From Candidatus Gastranaerophilales bacterium (GTDB lineage Bacteria; Cyanobacteriota; Vampirovibrionia; Gastranaerophilales; Gastranaerophilaceae), in NCBI GenBank assembly GCA_947594025.1, contig CANQDZ010000015.1, positions 1 through 32,999 of the forward strand: DNA of 32,999 bases. The letters are read 5' to 3'. This document shows positions 13,994 to 32,999 of the stretch, in pieces. The notes beneath the pieces were generated by a model. The model was given only the letters and a program-made list of their open reading frames with translations. It had not been told where the DNA came from and ran no database searches. The position numbers were made by a program, and so were the translations under genes. Position 1 is the stretch's first letter. Each line of letters opens with the position of its first letter.

Positions 13994-16069
13994 TTATTCA
14001 CCGATTGTATCGATTGCTTCAACCCTAATATCGGTTATAAGTTCAGAGTATGAAACAACAACAATGGTAGGAATGTGTCGTTCCAACATCTGATACAAAG
14101 GAAGCCTTATTCTTGGAGAACATAAGATAACAGGCTGATAGCCGACGCTTCTTGTTGCTCTTGCAATTGTGTTAGCTGTTGTTTCAATAAGCTCTTGAAC
14201 CTGCATAGGGTTTAAGAGAAACATTGTTCCGAGTTCTGTTCTCTGGCAGCTGTCATCAAGCATTTTTTCCCATTCACTTGAAAGCGTAAGTGCGTATAAC
14301 ACACCGTTAACTGAATTTTTAAGGCATATTTGACGTCCGAGCGCTGCACGCAGCCTTTCGGATAAAATATCCGGTTCTTTTGAAAACCTTGCATAGTCGC
14401 AAAGTCTTTCAAATATAAAGATAATATCTCTTATTGAAACCTTCTCCCTGATTAAGTTTACAAATATTTTTCTTAAGTCGGATGTTGAGATAATTGTAGG
14501 AACAAGGTCATTTACAAGTGTCGGGTCTGATGATTTTACAAGCTCCATGAGCTTTAATACATCAGTTTTTGTCATAATTTCATCAACGTATTTTCTAACA
14601 CACTCTCTCAGGTGTGTTACAATAACGTCAACACTATCTACCGCCCTTATCCCGTCATTTTGATCAATGTGTGACGGATCAAGCCAATATGCTTGAGTTT
14701 GATAAGCAGGGTCAACACTTATGATTACATCTTGAGGAACTTTTTTTCCTAAAGCATTCCACTGGTCTGCAATAACCATAAGTTTTCCGGGGTATACGGT
14801 ACCTGAAGATACTGTATTTCCTCTAATCATTATTATGTAATCATTTGCGTTTAAGGCTGACGCATCCATAATTCTTATATTGGGTATGATGTAGCCTAAA
14901 TCGTCAGTCACCATTTGTCTTAGAGCCGCAATTTTAGGCAAAAGCTGTCCGTTTTGTTCCGGATCTGCAATAGGTAAAAGACCGGAGCCTACCTGCAAGC
15001 TCAAAACGTCCACGCCAAGTCTTTCGTACATCTTGTTGGGGTTAACAATATCCCTCATATCCTGTTTTACTTTATCGAGTTGACCAAGCTGCTGCTGGAC
15101 ATCCTGATTAACCGCGACAGAGAACCATGCAGCAACAATAATACCTATAAATAACACAAACGGCCACCAGGGAAGATGTGTCCAGTGGCAGGTTAAAACA
15201 ATTAAACCTAAGAATAAGCAGGCAAAACCTAAAGCACCGGGTTTTGCAAATAGCTGTATGGATAAATCTTGACCCAAGGATGAACTTTGAGCTGTTGAAC
15301 GAGTCATTACAACACCTGCTGCAATTGACATCAAAAGAGAAGGTATTTGAGATGCAAGACCGTCGCCCACCGTTAACACCGTGTACTTTTGAACGGCGTC
15401 TGCAACGGGCATTTGGTTCATCATACATCCTACGCACAAGCCGCCTACAATATTTATGATAACGATAATTATACCCGCTATTGTATCGCCTTTAACGAAC
15501 TTCATCGCACCATCCATGGAACCAAAGAGGTTTGATTCTCTTTGAAGGTCTTCACGGCGCCTTATTGCTTCTTCCGGAGATATAAGCCCTGCGTTGAAGT
15601 CGGCATCGATTGTCATTTGTTTACCGGGCATGGCATCAAGTGCAAACCTTGCGGAAACTTCCGCGATACGTTCCGCACCTTTTGTGATAACCAGAAATTG
15701 AACGATTGTAATAATCAAGAATATTACAAAACCGACAACCAGATTACCGCCCGTAACAAAATTACCAAATGCTTCAATAACGGCACCGGGTTCACCCGTC
15801 GCTAAAATCAGACGGGTTGATGCAATTGACAAAATAAGACGAAACATTGTCCCCATAAGCAAAATTGAAGGGAATGAAGCAAGTTCGAGCGGTCTTTGTA
15901 CATACAGGGATATCATTAAAAGCACAATACCTATTGTGATATTTAGGCTTATTGAAAAGTTAATAATGGCAGGCGGAAGCTCTACAAGCAAAATTACAAT
16001 AAGCGTTATGACAAACAGAGCCAATACGACTTCAGCTATTTGATTATTTTCTTTTATATCTGCTGCCAT
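13994..16069 (-). CDS. flhA: Flagellar export gate protein FlhA
   Basis: FlhA forms the nonameric inner-membrane export gate of the flagellar type III secretion apparatus. The 691 residues have the usual two halves. The membrane part, up to about residue 330, has around eight hydrophobic segments. A soluble cytoplasmic ring domain follows. The FHIPEP signature segment RLILSIASTRLIL lies at 77-89. The conserved cytoplasmic loop has MTIDADFNAGLI, EEAIRRREDLQ and FVKGD, whose Asp corresponds to the proton-coupling residue studied in Salmonella. Assignment to flagella rather than an injectisome (SctV) rests on the adjacent fliE, fliF and fliH genes. It starts 9 bp after fliH. fliI, which often sits between these genes, is absent. 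Confidence 0.93.
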   Translation of the reverse strand: MAADIKENNQIAEVVLALFVITLIVILLVELPPAIINFSISLNITIGIVLLMISLYVQRPLELASFPSILLMGTMFRLILSIASTRLILATGEPGAVIEAFGNFVTGGNLVVGFVIFLIITIVQFLVITKGAERIAEVSARFALDAMPGKQMTIDADFNAGLISPEEAIRRREDLQRESNLFGSMDGAMKFVKGDTIAGIIIVIINIVGGLCVGCMMNQMPVADAVQKYTVLTVGDGLASQIPSLLMSIAAGVVMTRSTAQSSSLGQDLSIQLFAKPGALGFACLFLGLIVLTCHWTHLPWWPFVLFIGIIVAAWFSVAVNQDVQQQLGQLDKVKQDMRDIVNPNKMYERLGVDVLSLQVGSGLLPIADPEQNGQLLPKIAALRQMVTDDLGYIIPNIRIMDASALNANDYIIMIRGNTVSSGTVYPGKLMVIADQWNALGKKVPQDVIISVDPAYQTQAYWLDPSHIDQNDGIRAVDSVDVIVTHLRECVRKYVDEIMTKTDVLKLMELVKSSDPTLVNDLVPTIISTSDLRKIFVNLIREKVSIRDIIFIFERLCDYARFSKEPDILSERLRAALGRQICLKNSVNGVLYALTLSSEWEKMLDDSCQRTELGTMFLLNPMQVQELIETTANTIARATRSVGYQPVILCSPRIRLPLYQMLERHIPTIVVVSYSELITDIRVEAIDTIGE

Positions 16070-16078
16070 TTATACTTC

Positions 16079-16780
16079 CTATTTATAGATTTCAAATGCG
16101 TTTTCAATGAGTTTTAACTGCGTTTTAAAATTAGCATCGACAACACCGTTTGAAACTATAAGTACACAACTTCCTTTTTCAACTTCATCATCAGGAATGA
16201 CCAAGAGTTTTGCATCTATTTTAGAATTTTTTAAAATTTTGGGCACCGTTTCTTGAGCATATTCTAAATCAGAACTTTCGACCTTTATTGTAATTTTTTG
16301 TTCATCCAGAGAAACTTTTTCAAGCACTTCTTCAAGAATTGAACCGAGTATATCATTATCCAGAAATACTTCTCTTTTAATAATTTTTTTTGCAACTTCA
16401 ACGGCAAGCTCTAAAATATCCTTAGAAATTGAAGAAAGAATTTCGTTTTTTGCATTTAGGAGTGAGGAAATTGCGTTTTTAACTTCTTCAATGTCTTCTT
16501 TTGCTTTTTCCATTCCTTCTTTATAACCGTCGTTTTTTGCATTTTCTCTTATGTTTTGGGCTTCCTCCTGAGCACGTGAAACAAGGCTTCTTTCGTCTAT
16601 TCTTCTAAACCCTCTCCTTCTTTCACCTCTGCGCCTTTCAAATCTTTCTTTGAACTCTATTGCGGAAATATCAATATCCTCAAGTGCAAGTACTTCCTCT
16701 TGAGGTTCTGCTTCCTTTGAAACTTTTTCTTCATCCGACGGCTTTATATCGACGTCATTTTTCTTTCTTCTGATTATCAT
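16079..16780 (-). CDS. fliH: Flagellar assembly protein FliH
   Basis: FliH is the stator-like regulator of the export ATPase FliI and links it to the C-ring. The 233 residues match the FliH/SctL pattern. A disordered acidic N-terminus is followed by an Arg-rich patch (about 46-60, RRRGERRRGFRR). A long coiled coil then includes GYKEGMEKAKED at about 85-96. The C-terminal domain contains ILELAVEVAKKIIKREV and ends in the beta/alpha repeat that binds FliI. Similarity to ATP synthase b/delta subunits is typical of the family. The start overlaps the upstream gene's stop by four bases. Its partner FliI is not encoded in this window. The Arg-rich patch is unusually strong. Confidence 0.85.
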   Translation of the reverse strand: MIIRRKKNDVDIKPSDEEKVSKEAEPQEEVLALEDIDISAIEFKERFERRRGERRRGFRRIDERSLVSRAQEEAQNIRENAKNDGYKEGMEKAKEDIEEVKNAISSLLNAKNEILSSISKDILELAVEVAKKIIKREVFLDNDILGSILEEVLEKVSLDEQKITIKVESSDLEYAQETVPKILKNSKIDAKLLVIPDDEVEKGSCVLIVSNGVVDANFKTQLKLIENAFEIYK

Positions 16781-17748
16781 TGTAAAACTTTTTCTCTTAA
16801 GTGTTTACAGATGGTATCCATAACCATTGCCGGCATTTCAATTCTGGTATCGTTATATGCGGACATAACCAATTTTTTTACATTTGGTCTTTCATTAGAT
16901 ATAATACTATCTATTTTGGATTTTTCCGAATTTTTTACAATTTTACACAATTGCATGTAACATCTTTCGTAAGAAACTTTTTTTGGTTTTGGCAGATGTT
17001 TTTTCATATCGGACAAAAATGTTGCCGCAAGCGACGGATTAAATTTTGTTTCGAAATCTTTCATATGCATATATTGTGCGAGAATGGTTGCCTCTTTTTT
17101 ATCAAATTTATTAATTATGGATTTGATTTTATCGTCAGGATAATTTCTTACTAAGAATACCAAAGATGCAAGCTTGCCTTTTTTCACATCGCTGATGTCG
17201 TTATATGTTTCATGCTTTAAGGCTTCTTCCGTTTGCTGCTGGGCCATCATATCCATATTAGACTGATTTACGGCATTATTAAAGTCGTCTTTTTGAATAA
17301 CATTTCTGTTTGATAAATCTTCAAGCGCCTTTTTGTAGCTGTTTTTTACATGAAACTCAACAAGTTCAATCATTTTTTCTTGAGGCATATCATGTTGTAT
17401 GGGTATTTTTAAGATTTCGTAAGCAGTACGCGCAACTTGGTCAAGGATACCTTTTCTGAGTTCAGGAATAATACCCCCTCTTATAAGGTCAATTGATTTA
17501 TGGAAAGTCCATTCTGCGACAATTTGGGATAAAAACTCAGCCTTATTCCTGTCAAAATTAACACTGGGGTCGCACTTGATGGCTTCACCTGCCATAAGGG
17601 TGTACTGGTGAACAAAATTCACAACAACGGCTTTGTCACTTTCGCTTATATCAGGCGGAATAAGCTCTTTTGCCTGACTTGCCAATTCTTGAGCAAAAGC
17701 AACATGGTTAAAATCTTTAATTCTATCTACATTTTGATTTGCCGGCAT
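16777..17748 (-). CDS. Unrecognised protein in the fliG position
   Basis: The gene sits exactly where fliG normally lies, 8 bp after fliF and overlapping fliH by four bases, yet I cannot see canonical FliG motifs. There is no EHPQ segment, no MFxFEDI box and no charged torque helix of the LKGAxEELxxK type. The 323 residues are almost entirely helical, with no signal peptide or membrane segment. They fall into an N-terminal block (about 1-150), a Gln/Met-rich linker (about 151-180), and a C-terminal block. The latter contains YPDDKIKSIINKFDKKEATI (203-222), loosely reminiscent of FliG armadillo helices. It may be an extremely divergent FliG or an unrelated replacement or adaptor that binds the FliF tail. 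Position suggests a switch or C-ring role; sequence alone does not prove it. Confidence 0.8.
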   Translation of the reverse strand: MPANQNVDRIKDFNHVAFAQELASQAKELIPPDISESDKAVVVNFVHQYTLMAGEAIKCDPSVNFDRNKAEFLSQIVAEWTFHKSIDLIRGGIIPELRKGILDQVARTAYEILKIPIQHDMPQEKMIELVEFHVKNSYKKALEDLSNRNVIQKDDFNNAVNQSNMDMMAQQQTEEALKHETYNDISDVKKGKLASLVFLVRNYPDDKIKSIINKFDKKEATILAQYMHMKDFETKFNPSLAATFLSDMKKHLPKPKKVSYERCYMQLCKIVKNSEKSKIDSIISNERPNVKKLVMSAYNDTRIEMPAMVMDTICKHLREKVLQ

Positions 17749-17756
17749 TTAACTCC

Positions 17757-19439
17757 CTACTCAGCATCAATCCATTTCTTTAGATTGTCTGCAATATCTT
17801 CATCATCTATGTCGTTCATATCAACATTTAATTCTGATATAACGTCATTTATATTTAATTCGTTTTGGATATTTATAGTATTTCTTGCTTGCTGGGTTTG
17901 AAGTGCCTGAATATTTTGTTGTTCAACAAGAGTTTTAGCTAAATCCTGTTGATTTTGCATTAATTCGCTTGCTCTGTGTGTAACATTTTCAAGCTGCTGC
18001 TGCTGTTTTTGTGACAATTCTCTTAAAAGTTCAAGTTCTTCAACCTGTTTTTCTGATTCTTTTCTTACTCTTGATGTTATATGTTTCAAACCGAGCGCTA
18101 AGCCTAAGAATAACGCGCCGCCCACAATCCACCAAGGGTTTCCGCTTTCTTCGGGTCTTGGAAGGTCATTTTCTTTATCAGGCGCCAAAATTGCATCATT
18201 TGAATCAATAAATGCAAGCGATACGTTTTCGATTTTTACTTTTGGGCTTGCACTTCTTGCGATAAGCTCTTTGAGCTCAGTAATGCTCATGGAAATCGGA
18301 ACGGCAGATTGTTCCATTGAAACGGCGATTGAAATTTCTTCAATAACGCCTTTATTCATATATTCGTTTACTTGGGTCTTGGAAACACCATACTGCGTTT
18401 CGTTTGCTGACCTTGAATAGTTTCTGTCTTGTGACGCAGAGGATGAACCTCCGCCAATTCCGTAAGGAAGATAGGTGCTCACTGCATTTGTTGCAGAGTT
18501 TACATCTGATGAATTATCACCCAATCTTTCGGAAAATTCTTGCTCCGATACTGCGGTTTTTGAACTCGGGTCATATATAATGCTTGATTTTTCAACAGGT
18601 GATTGAGTTAAGAATGTTGAAACCGTTACAACATAATTTCCTTTACCTAAAAGTCTGTCGAGTTGTTGAGAAACTTTAGCTTGCATATATCTGTCATTTT
18701 CTTCAATTTTTGCAAGCGCGTCATCTGATGAATCAGAGATACTGTTATATACATTACCGTTTGTATCCGTAACTGAAATATTTTCTACATGGAGGTCTTG
18801 CACTGCGCCTAAAAGCAAGTTTTGAATTGCTTTTACCTTCATACTGTCCAATTTTTCACCGCTTGGAATTGTAACCTGAACCGTTGCGGTAATAGGTTTT
18901 TTATCAGCTTTAAAAAATGTCTGTTCCGGAATTGAAACAAAAACTTGTGCGTTTTCAATCGGGGGGATTTTTCTGATTAATCTTGAAAGTTCACCGTTGA
19001 TAGCACGAACAAGTCTGATTTTTTTATCTTCCTTGGTAGATGTAAAATCACCTTTGTCAAAAATTTCAAGTCCGACATGTTGATCGACAAGTCCGCTTTT
19101 AACAATTGCCAAAAGAGCCATGTCCCTGTCTTTCATTTTATTTTTTTTCTTCTTTAGAACAAGAACTGATTTATTACCGTCAAGTTCTCTTTCAACCTCT
19201 ATACCTTGACGGGCAAGAAGGGCTTGAACTTCAAGAGCTGTTCCTATATTATCGGTAGAAAACAGTTTAACATCTTCTTTGAGTGCTTCCTCATTTTGAG
19301 CTTTTACTCCGCCGTTAACGGATGTTGATGCTGCAATACCCACAACAATAAATAAGGCAAGAACGACAAATGCGGCTATAACCCCGTATAGCATCATTTT
19401 ATTTTCTTGCAGTCTGCTGAGTATTGCCTTGAAATCCAT
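17757..19439 (-). CDS. fliF: Flagellar MS-ring protein FliF
   Basis: FliF builds the MS ring in the inner membrane, the base on which rod, export gate and switch assemble. The 560 residues have an N-terminal transmembrane helix (about 17-38) and a periplasmic YscJ/FliF region (about 45-225, including the segment IRLVRAINGELSRLIRKI). A second ring-building region contains a flexible Ser/Gly/Asn-rich insertion (about 305-350). A second transmembrane helix follows at about 435-452, and then a Gln-rich coiled-coil tail. The end, IADNLKKWIDAE, keeps the hydrophobic-Trp-hydrophobic pattern by which FliF tails bind the FliG N-domain. This implies that a FliG-like partner exists, although none is recognisable next door. 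GAGG about 12 nt before the ATG and an upstream promoter suggest a new transcription start here. Confidence 0.93.
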   Translation of the reverse strand: MDFKAILSRLQENKMMLYGVIAAFVVLALFIVVGIAASTSVNGGVKAQNEEALKEDVKLFSTDNIGTALEVQALLARQGIEVERELDGNKSVLVLKKKKNKMKDRDMALLAIVKSGLVDQHVGLEIFDKGDFTSTKEDKKIRLVRAINGELSRLIRKIPPIENAQVFVSIPEQTFFKADKKPITATVQVTIPSGEKLDSMKVKAIQNLLLGAVQDLHVENISVTDTNGNVYNSISDSSDDALAKIEENDRYMQAKVSQQLDRLLGKGNYVVTVSTFLTQSPVEKSSIIYDPSSKTAVSEQEFSERLGDNSSDVNSATNAVSTYLPYGIGGGSSSASQDRNYSRSANETQYGVSKTQVNEYMNKGVIEEISIAVSMEQSAVPISMSITELKELIARSASPKVKIENVSLAFIDSNDAILAPDKENDLPRPEESGNPWWIVGGALFLGLALGLKHITSRVRKESEKQVEELELLRELSQKQQQQLENVTHRASELMQNQQDLAKTLVEQQNIQALQTQQARNTINIQNELNINDVISELNVDMNDIDDEDIADNLKKWIDAE

Positions 19440-19501: not shown

Positions 19502-19825
19502 CTATATTTGAATTTGTGATACTTTTTCATACGCTTGGATGACTTTTCCGACGATAGTTGTTGCAATGTTTACTTGAATATCTGCTTTTTGAATTGCGCT
19601 CATTACATCGTGAATATCTGCTTGTCCCATCATAGCGTCATTTAACACCTGATCGGGAGCATTTACCGTTTCATTTAAATTTTCAACAAGACCTGACAAA
19701 ACTGTTTTAAAATCGGCAGTTTCAGGTTGCTCTATACTTTTCATACGCATAGAAGGCGAATTTGTTGAAATTTTACTTGGCTCAATTCTTTCAAATAAAT
19801 TAATTTTTGGTGTTAAGTTTGACAT
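19502..19825 (-). CDS. fliE: Flagellar hook-basal body protein FliE
   Basis: FliE is the first axial protein exported by the flagellar apparatus and links the MS ring and export gate to the proximal rod. The 107-residue length is typical. It has a disordered N-terminus and then ADFKTVLSGLVENLNETVNA (about 37-56), the conserved phenylalanine-led helix. Next come DxMMGQADIHDVMSAIQKAD (about 63-82) and the C-terminal helix VNIATTIVGKVIQAYEKVSQIQI, which are standard family features. No Sec signal is present, as expected for a protein using type III export. It follows the lytic transglycosylase gene by about 13 bp and precedes fliF. Confidence 0.92.
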   Translation of the reverse strand: MSNLTPKINLFERIEPSKISTNSPSMRMKSIEQPETADFKTVLSGLVENLNETVNAPDQVLNDAMMGQADIHDVMSAIQKADIQVNIATTIVGKVIQAYEKVSQIQI

Positions 19826-19838
19826 AATCTACCTCTCT

Positions 19839-20489
19839 TTACAGATAATTATTCAACACTGACATTACATAATTTTGTGTTTCTTTATAAGGGGGAACCC
19901 CGTTATATTTTTTAACTGCGTTTGGTCCCGCATTATATGCAGCAAGAGCCAAAACCTTGTTGCCGTTGAATTTTTCAAGCATAGATTTCAGATATCTTAC
20001 TCCGCCGTCAACATTTTGCGCGGGGTTTAAGCTGTCTTTTACGCCTAAACTTTTTGCAGTTGCGGGCATTAACTGCATAAGCCCCTGAGCACCTGCTTTT
20101 GATTGTGCTTTGGGATTAAAACCTGATTCTTGTTTTATAACCGCTTTAACAAGTTTTTCGTCGACTCCGTATTTTTTTGATGTTTGTTCAATAAGGTCAA
20201 TAATCTGTTCTTTTGTATAGGAAAGGTTATTAACGGCATTGTTTGATACATTTGTAAGCGAGCCGAATTTTATATTGCTGATTGGAGGTGTATCAATATC
20301 AAAAACGCTTCCGTCCTCAAGTGTTGCCTGAAGAACATCTTTAAAAGGCTGCGCCTTAACCTCTTTTGAAACGGAAATTTCTTGAGGTCGGGATAAATTA
20401 TTCACGTAGCCTTCAAGCTGCGCAATCCTTTTTCTCATTTGCGCTTCGCCTGATGTATTTATATAATTTTGTATGGTTGGGCTAAACAC
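19839..20489 (-). CDS. Lytic transglycosylase, probably flagellum-associated
   Basis: This is a GH23/Slt-type soluble lytic transglycosylase that cleaves peptidoglycan glycan strands. In the 216-residue product the catalytic Glu121 lies in [18 protein letters not shown] follows at 136-145 and AYNAGPNAV at 184-192, the three signatures of the fold. I start it at the GTG at 20489 because GGAGG lies 7 nt upstream; the frame is also open from a GTG at 20510, which lacks such a site. There is no Sec signal peptide or membrane helix. Next to fliE, a product without a signal is likely exported by the flagellar apparatus to open the wall for the rod, the role of FlgJ or SltF elsewhere. The N-terminal [13 protein letters not shown] resembles the FKTVL segment of FliE. 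Confidence 0.85.
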
Positions 20490-20542
20490 CAATAAACCTC
20501 CGCTCTCCACTATCAGTTTACGGGAAAAATTCAGATTTTTTT

Positions 20543-32180: not shown

Positions 32181-32999
32181 TTAATATTTCATCTCCCACC
32201 CTTCTTCCATGATACGTCCTGCACAGCCGTAACCGTCAGTCTTTTTGCTGCATCCTTCTTCTTTGTCATCGTTTTTCCAATAGCCCCTGCAAGATTCAAG
32301 ATTCTCATATTCGCAGTTTTGAGTATAATAAACGGCAAAATCCACACTACCTTCAGGGTATAATGTGCCGTCATTGTCCAAATAAAATGTGAATAAATCA
32401 CGACCTAAAACATTTGGACCCTTTGGACCGTTAACATCAATATCCATATAACCTAAATATTCCCAAAGTTTTGTCTTGGTATTTCTTTTTTCCTGAAATT
32501 CTTTTAAAGAAGAACATCTTTTATTGCCACAATACACTGCGCTTGGAGTTTTGAGTAAATAAAAATATAAAAAAGTGCCGTCTGCTAAATATATTGCAGA
32601 ATCATACGGATCGAGGTCATCACCGTTCAAACCTTTATATTTCGGGTTGTATTCATCAGGGATATTTCCTGAACCATACTCTGCAATAACTTTAAATGTT
32701 TTAAAGAATTCATTTTTAAAATCTGAATTTTTAGGCTGTAAAATTTCCTCTGAATAAAAACTATACGACCCTGACGGCAATTTTGACCATAGAGTGGTAT
32801 CGGATAGCTTTGTAACACCGTCATTTGCCATTATGGTTCTAAAGGCATTGGTTAGGTTGTTGTAAGACTTTTTAAGCTGAGTAACATACATTTTCTTTTG
32901 ATAATTTGTGATAACGGTTGGAATTGTAAGTGCTGCAACAACACCTATGATAGCAAGAGTGATTAGAACCTCAGCCAATGTGAATGCTTTAATTTTTTT
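32181..32999 (-). CDS. Type II/IV pseudopilin-like protein, 5' end outside the window
   Basis: The frame runs to the right edge, so the start is missing; the visible 273 codons begin KKIKAFTLAEVL. This is a prepilin signal: a short basic leader, a probable cleavage between Ala and Phe, then the hydrophobic helix TLAEVLITLAIIGVVAALTIP with the conserved Glu at +5 (counting Phe as +1). The TTG inside this motif is not a true start. The body is a globular extracellular domain with six cysteines in three pairs (CGNKRC, then NCEYENLESC, then GCSKKTDGYGC), likely disulphide-bonded, and ends GRIMEEGWEMKY. Such proteins often occur in many copies in Gastranaerophilales-type genomes. Whether this one belongs to a secretion pilus, a type IV pilus or a surface protein is unknown. 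Confidence 0.88.
   Translation of the reverse strand, partial: KKIKAFTLAEVLITLAIIGVVAALTIPTVITNYQKKMYVTQLKKSYNNLTNAFRTIMANDGVTKLSDTTLWSKLPSGSYSFYSEEILQPKNSDFKNEFFKTFKVIAEYGSGNIPDEYNPKYKGLNGDDLDPYDSAIYLADGTFLYFYLLKTPSAVYCGNKRCSSLKEFQEKRNTKTKLWEYLGYMDIDVNGPKGPNVLGRDLFTFYLDNDGTLYPEGSVDFAVYYTQNCEYENLESCRGYWKNDDKEEGCSKKTDGYGCAGRIMEEGWEMKY

Follow-up and report, generated by a model that had tools for sequence, protein, structure and literature searches.

Which protein occupies the fliG position in a flagellar-type gene cluster of Gastranaerophilales? The stretch of DNA analysed here (the window; 32,999 nucleotides) lies on contig 15 of a 1.51 Mb assembly that is 98.9% complete. ORF calls and Pfam searches revealed a run of minus-strand genes in the order SLT transglycosylase, fliE, fliF, X, fliH, flhA, X being the gene in the fliG slot. 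The end of fliF is separated from the start of X by 8 bases, and the last 4 bases of X (16777-16780) are also the first 4 of fliH. An earlier note on this DNA had described the order fliF-X-fliH with a 4-base overlap, and the ORFs and Pfam matches of the neighbours bore this out. The following features are referred to below.

13994..16069, minus strand: flhA/sctV export gate of the X system, 691 aa (Pfam FHIPEP, 3.4e-215)
16079..16780, minus strand: fliH/sctL stator of the X system, 233 aa (Pfam FliH, 1.2e-19)
16777..17748, minus strand: X, all-helical two-domain protein in the fliG slot, 323 aa (ORF, overlap with fliH; AF2 model, pLDDT 89.5)
16780..17202, minus strand: C-terminal domain of X (residues 183-323), probably remotely FliG N/M-like (ARM, MgtE_N-like; AF2, sub-threshold Pfam matches, hhalign)
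17269..17706, minus strand: N-terminal domain of X (residues ~15-160), long-helix bundle, lineage-specific module (AF2 helices 15-147)
17757..19439, minus strand: fliF (MS ring) of the X system, 560 aa (Pfam YscJ_FliF, 4.7e-34, and YscJ_FliF_C)
17760..17795, minus strand: C-terminal tail of FliF (DNLKKWIDAE), candidate docking site of X (tail conserved in the order and in a related family)
19502..19825, minus strand: fliE of the X system, 107 aa (Pfam FliE, 5.7e-16)
19839..20510, minus strand: SLT lytic transglycosylase, regular member of the X operon (Pfam SLT, 1.7e-35; position shared by most X loci)

X alone gave no above-cut-off match in Pfam or NCBIfam, and its matches to PrgK and glutaredoxin in HMMER searches were at chance level. 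FlhA of the window scored under the NCBIfam cut-offs of both FlhA and SctV.

Relatives of X are encoded at 436 loci of GTDB species representatives, and X was present in 55 of the 59 relatives searched. Among 100 distinct X loci, some of which end early at contig ends, FliH was encoded near or adjoining X in 100, FlhA in 98 and FliF in 93. Because these three recur beside X so regularly, the arrangement is not due to chance. Intact X operons of relatives contain, according to Pfam, flgF-like, flgG-like, flgB, flgC, SLT, fliE, fliF, X, fliH, flhA and fliI; at one locus (L047) the operon continues with fliJ, a FliK-like gene and a FlgE/F/G-like gene. Outside these kept-together operons lie the genes of FliPQR and FlhB, and that of a lone protein with a SpoA domain (FliN/SctQ-type). 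In the genus of the window, the rod genes and fliI are not adjacent to X. The window's genome encodes FliO, FliP, FliQ, FliR and the SpoA protein on contig 13 and FlhB on contig 6, and its rods are represented by one weak Flg_bb_rod match. Several families carry, upstream of the flgF-like gene, a gene of ~310-350 aa without convincing Pfam match (L045:3474-4397, L046:15518-16570, L053:3280-4209), a candidate substrate or regulator. Two X frames contain one in-frame TAA inside the profile match (G020:C104:3919-4932 and G030:C103:3302-4336); these may be assembly errors or broken genes.

We surveyed the gene content of the 59 relatives, 44 of which were at least 90% complete (termed good genomes: 43 members of the order, and G058 as the sole genome from outside it). 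FliG_C was found in 34 of the 59, FliP in 58, SpoA proteins in 58, flagellin in 36 and MotB_plug in 35, and FlhB was present in all genomes of a 39-genome subset. FliG_C, Flagellin_N and MotB_plug were each found in 24 of the 44 good genomes, the same 24 as judged by reading of the rows, and flagellin in good genomes occurred only together with FliG. X and FliP were each present in 43 of the 44, i.e., in all 43 order-level genomes, the exception being G058. Thus, X is found throughout the good genomes of the order, and 24 of these 43 genomes also hold a flagellum with canonical fliG at a separate locus. The canonical locus (flgB, flgC, fliE, fliF, fliG, fliH, fliI) lies on a contig other than that of the X locus or far away from it, and canonical FliG was found in none of the 100 X loci. 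FliG-positive genomes mostly had two FliP and two FlhB; FliG-negative genomes mostly had one of each, with a single SpoA protein of ~370-430 aa and often a second, weak SpoA stretch.

The earlier note had assumed, without saying so, that the cluster is part of a flagellum. This premise was not supported: no FliG_C, flagellin, MotB or FliM/FliN pair was found in the window's genome. In the other flagellum-less relatives, searches gave no FliG_C or MotB_plug and one SpoA protein only. A second canonical fliG, whose presence elsewhere the note had held to argue against a replacement, was absent from the window's genome and present at another locus in flagellated relatives. Because these relatives carry the X operon beside a separate canonical flagellum with ordinary fliG, X is not a replacement of FliG in a rotary motor. 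X very likely belongs to a second, separate flagellar-type export system. In flagellum-less genomes that system has no FliG_C, no MotB and no FliM/FliN pair, and we infer the same for genomes that also have a flagellum.

The AF2 model of X was confident, and the C-domain alone had a pLDDT of 91.7. When 44 diverse C-domains were searched singly against Pfam with hmmscan, the two most frequent families were MgtE_N (22 domains; best 6.4e-4) and FliG_M (16 domains; best 1.2e-4); FliG_N and FliG_C were also listed, all scores to FliG families being below the gathering thresholds. MgtE_N and FliG have a common fold. A C-domain profile compared with PDB sequences had MgtE 2oux (0.023) and FliG 3hjl (0.049, chain residues 132-236) as top matches. 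In hhalign, the C-domain scored 31.0 against a broad FliG profile built with FliGs from plasmid records (P 0.0012, probability only 19%); 59 column shuffles scored at most 14.8 and the reversed profile scored 18.3. The C-domain spans FliG_N and the start of FliG_M in this alignment. FliG ranked top among 43 non-X families from the same loci; the margin was modest because the next family, canonical FliF, reached 24.7. FliG's best non-self matches in the reciprocal comparison were X, and FliG predominated among the weak matches of the C-domain profile in the ORF set. A phylum-level match in G287, to a 692-aa protein that is polyphosphate kinase-like by sequence, was taken as chance. A FliG profile of 16 close sequences was too shallow (P 0.003-0.04).

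Only two C-domain residues are invariant, the E and R of 'ERPxVKxFV', and they align to the E of the E(N/H)PQ motif of FliG_M. Going by this alignment, the E-R-P of the C-domain may be a relic of EHPQ. The earlier note had listed FliG patterns as missing from X; the alignments confirmed the absence of the EHPQ string, MFxFEDI and the FliG_C torque domain, with the reservation of the possible relic. X has no counterpart of FliG_C: it stops after the ARM-like domain, and there was no above-cut-off match to PF01706. A Foldseek search with full-length X against PDB and viral structures gave nothing significant, and the two-domain build of X may have confused it; with the C-domain alone, three FliG chains were among 20 matches, with E > 4 and low TM-scores.

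Taken together, the sequence comparisons indicate that the C-domain is probably related to the N/middle (ARM) domains of FliG. We grade this relation as probable rather than proven because the agreeing tests are weak and none passed a strict cut-off. An alternative is that X is an unrelated helical scaffold in the fliG slot, its likeness to FliG and MgtE_N being generic to superhelices of short helices. Helical repeats do attract one another, and all of the homology tests were weak, with no significant FliG match in Foldseek; however, FliG and its fold-mate MgtE_N came out on top independently in Pfam, PDB and the controlled hhalign comparison, and X already occupies the exact position of FliG. 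We consider this alternative unlikely. The earlier note had left the choice between a FliG diverged beyond recognition and a different protein, to be settled by profile comparison and structure prediction. The results point to a mixture, in which a new N-terminal domain precedes a FliG-like ARM domain with a remote N/middle match, and the torque domain is missing.

X resembles FliG (PF14842 FliG_N, PF14841 FliG_M, PF01706 FliG_C) in its slot between fliF and fliH and in its C-domain alignment. It differs from FliG in its extra N-terminal domain of 150 aa, in the remoteness of the sequence relation and in belonging to a machine that lacks stators. The FliF proteins of the two systems both have a short terminal tail of helical type that includes an aromatic residue (W or Y). 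The Trp-containing pattern that the earlier note had pointed out in the FliF tail is indeed present in the window (...DNLKKWIDAE), and the W motif is found order-wide as ...LKSWIE, versus ...LLLSYIKD in canonical FliF. In f9, another family of the class, the operon is the same, and the slot protein has 130-150 aa and corresponds only to the C-domain; the FliF tail of this family is conserved (...LQ[IV]WLEEG), and no FliG_C was found in its genomes. Since f9 has just the C-domain in the slot, the C-domain is the constant part of X. Another family (f10) has a two-domain X plus a separate canonical FliG. Judged by the tail motifs, a FliF tail of the FliG-docking type is retained wherever the C-domain occurs. 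FliH of f9 (L189, L190, L193, L195) is mostly 400-500 aa long, with a long acidic C-terminal extension, and X of f9 has no N-terminal domain.

The N-terminal domain of X had no relative outside the class in the sequences searched. In one family it forms a 187-aa protein by itself, encoded between fliF and X (L044:10843-11406, minus strand; L045:9492-10055, plus strand). In one genome (G013), a 593-aa protein (L093:8042-9823, minus strand) has the N-domain of X at residues 3-188 joined to the cytoplasmic domain of FlhA (FHIPEP 8e-51 at 377-581). This fusion protein does not contain the membrane part of FlhA, and a normal flhA is also present in that genome (L051). Because the N-domain occurs fused to the cytoplasmic domain of FlhA, its domain context suggests that it works at the export platform. 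Copies of the N-domain also occur away from the X gene, with differing or no C-terminal parts (L041:3621-4607, L091:9429-10121, L094:9159-10103, L095:9371-10210, L096:8782-9906, L097:9543-10232); no Pfam family was found above cut-off in their tails. An apparent fusion of X to a PLD protein was rejected: the 599-aa frame is the protein that joins the N-domain to the FlhA cytoplasmic domain, and PLD is encoded by a separate gene in the same stretch. Extra X matches were also seen in other genomes of the genus of G013.

Maximum-likelihood trees of FlhA were examined. X-system FlhA formed a clade with 100/100 support and a long stem, apart from local canonical FlhA and from the SctV references, which were rhizobial only and formed a separate 100/100 clade. 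In the trimmed tree, X-system FlhA lay outside all sampled flagellar FlhA (96/89); the AU test did not reject a clade of X-system and local flagellar FlhA (p 0.079), and long branches in these trees may draw the X system towards SctV. The FlhA tree argues against the flagellum having been duplicated locally in recent times, though with the above AU value. The X system is evidently old, because its FlhA forms a distinct, long-stem clade.

We also considered that X might be a sorting-platform adaptor of SctK type in a genuine non-flagellar type III secretion system. The X system resembles the injectisome, including the secretin-less type of Myxococcales (PMC3459982), in lacking motility parts, in having one SctQ-like SpoA protein of ~400 aa, and in a gene order that fits sctI-J-K-L as well as fliE-F-G-H. 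However, its FliF is of flagellar type (YscJ_FliF_C), and its operon includes FliE, FlgB, FlgC and FlgF/G, i.e., flagellar rods; FlgB, FlgC and FliE are flagellum-specific markers in Abby and Rocha (PMC3459982). Furthermore, its FlhA lies outside the sampled, rhizobial SctV clade, and the 25 Pfam families that the 44 C-domain members matched most frequently included none of SctK type. An SctK-type function of X is therefore improbable. A further reading, in which X truly replaces FliG in a flagellum that is degraded or still rotates and the gene set is a remnant in a reduced gut bacterium, draws on the inference of Soo et al. 2014 (PMC4040986) that flagella were lost and gene subsets remained, and on the small genome without flagellin, MotB and FliG; yet it is strongly disfavoured, because remnants would not persist so uniformly across all good order-level genomes, among them the 24 with a canonical flagellum, at a locus separate from canonical fliF-fliG-fliH and with FlhA in a distinct deep clade.

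In our preferred reading, to which we assign a probability of roughly 65%, Vampirovibrionia possess a second type III export system that is flagellar-type but motor-less, and X serves as its adaptor. The X system shares with the bacterial flagellum FliE, FliF with YscJ_FliF_C, FliH, FliI, FlhA, FlhB, FliO-R and the rods FlgB, FlgC and FlgF/G. It differs in lacking FliG_C, the FliM/FliN pair, MotB and flagellin, in being present irrespective of the cell's flagellum, and in the deep separate clade of its FlhA. The C-domain of X, as a diverged ARM domain of FliG N/middle type, would dock on the tail helix of FliF as FliG_N does; its position, the conserved tail and the remote homology point to this docking. 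The ring would not be rotated, consistent with the missing torque domain in a system without MotB and the FliM/FliN pair. Judging from its fusion to the FlhA cytoplasmic domain, the N-domain probably ties the FliF ring to the export platform, with this FlhA domain, the FliH/FliI stator or the lone SctQ-like SpoA protein as its partner. Rod-type subunits and other substrates, rather than a flagellin filament, would leave the cell through this machine. For this detailed chain from FliF tail through X to export platform, we put the chances slightly above even.

Di Rienzi 2013 (PMC3787301) and Soo 2014 (PMC4040986) described flagella in some Melainabacteria and incomplete flagellar gene sets in others. 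The ACD20 genes used in the former study form one run (flgG, flgG, flgC, fliF, fliH, flhA, fliI) that matches the X operon, and the numbering of these genes leaves out one number between fliF and fliH. These papers counted such genes to the flagellum, as lost or incomplete in many members, whereas here a second system was found in every good order-level genome. Because the X system is present with or without a real flagellum, the 'partial flagella' look like a separate secretion system. In the literature searched, we found no report that these bacteria possess a second type III system. The hat-shaped inner-membrane structure of Kaplan 2022 (PMC9380563) was considered, and no link to the X system was made. 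The 'partial flagella' of a whole order of gut bacteria would be reread not as flagella in decay but as a conserved second export machine of motile and non-motile species. Abby and Rocha 2012 (PMC3459982) proposed a motility-less intermediate between flagellum and injectisome that survives in Myxococcales; the X system differs from it in retaining rod genes. If the preferred reading is true, a motor-less machine with rod, gate, ATPase and cut-down FliG would be a living counterpart of this intermediate. X also suggests that the ring-adaptor role of FliG is separable from torque, and makes this separation testable.

Vampirovibrionia, the class that is the sister group of photosynthetic Cyanobacteria, might even possess a type III export machine of a third, ancient kind that is distinct from both flagellum and injectisome. 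We put this forward tentatively, as a proposal with odds somewhat against it. Such a machine would be non-rotating and rod-bearing, with a FliG-derived adaptor and a position outside known flagellar FlhA, and would have been kept after loss of the flagellum for secretion or cell-surface interaction.

Apart from the X operon, the window encodes a type IV pilin-like protein at 32181-32999 (starting FTLAEVLITLAIIGVVAALTIPTV), with a similar copy at L079:1-732; these proteins seemingly belong to a multi-copy family in the window's genome.
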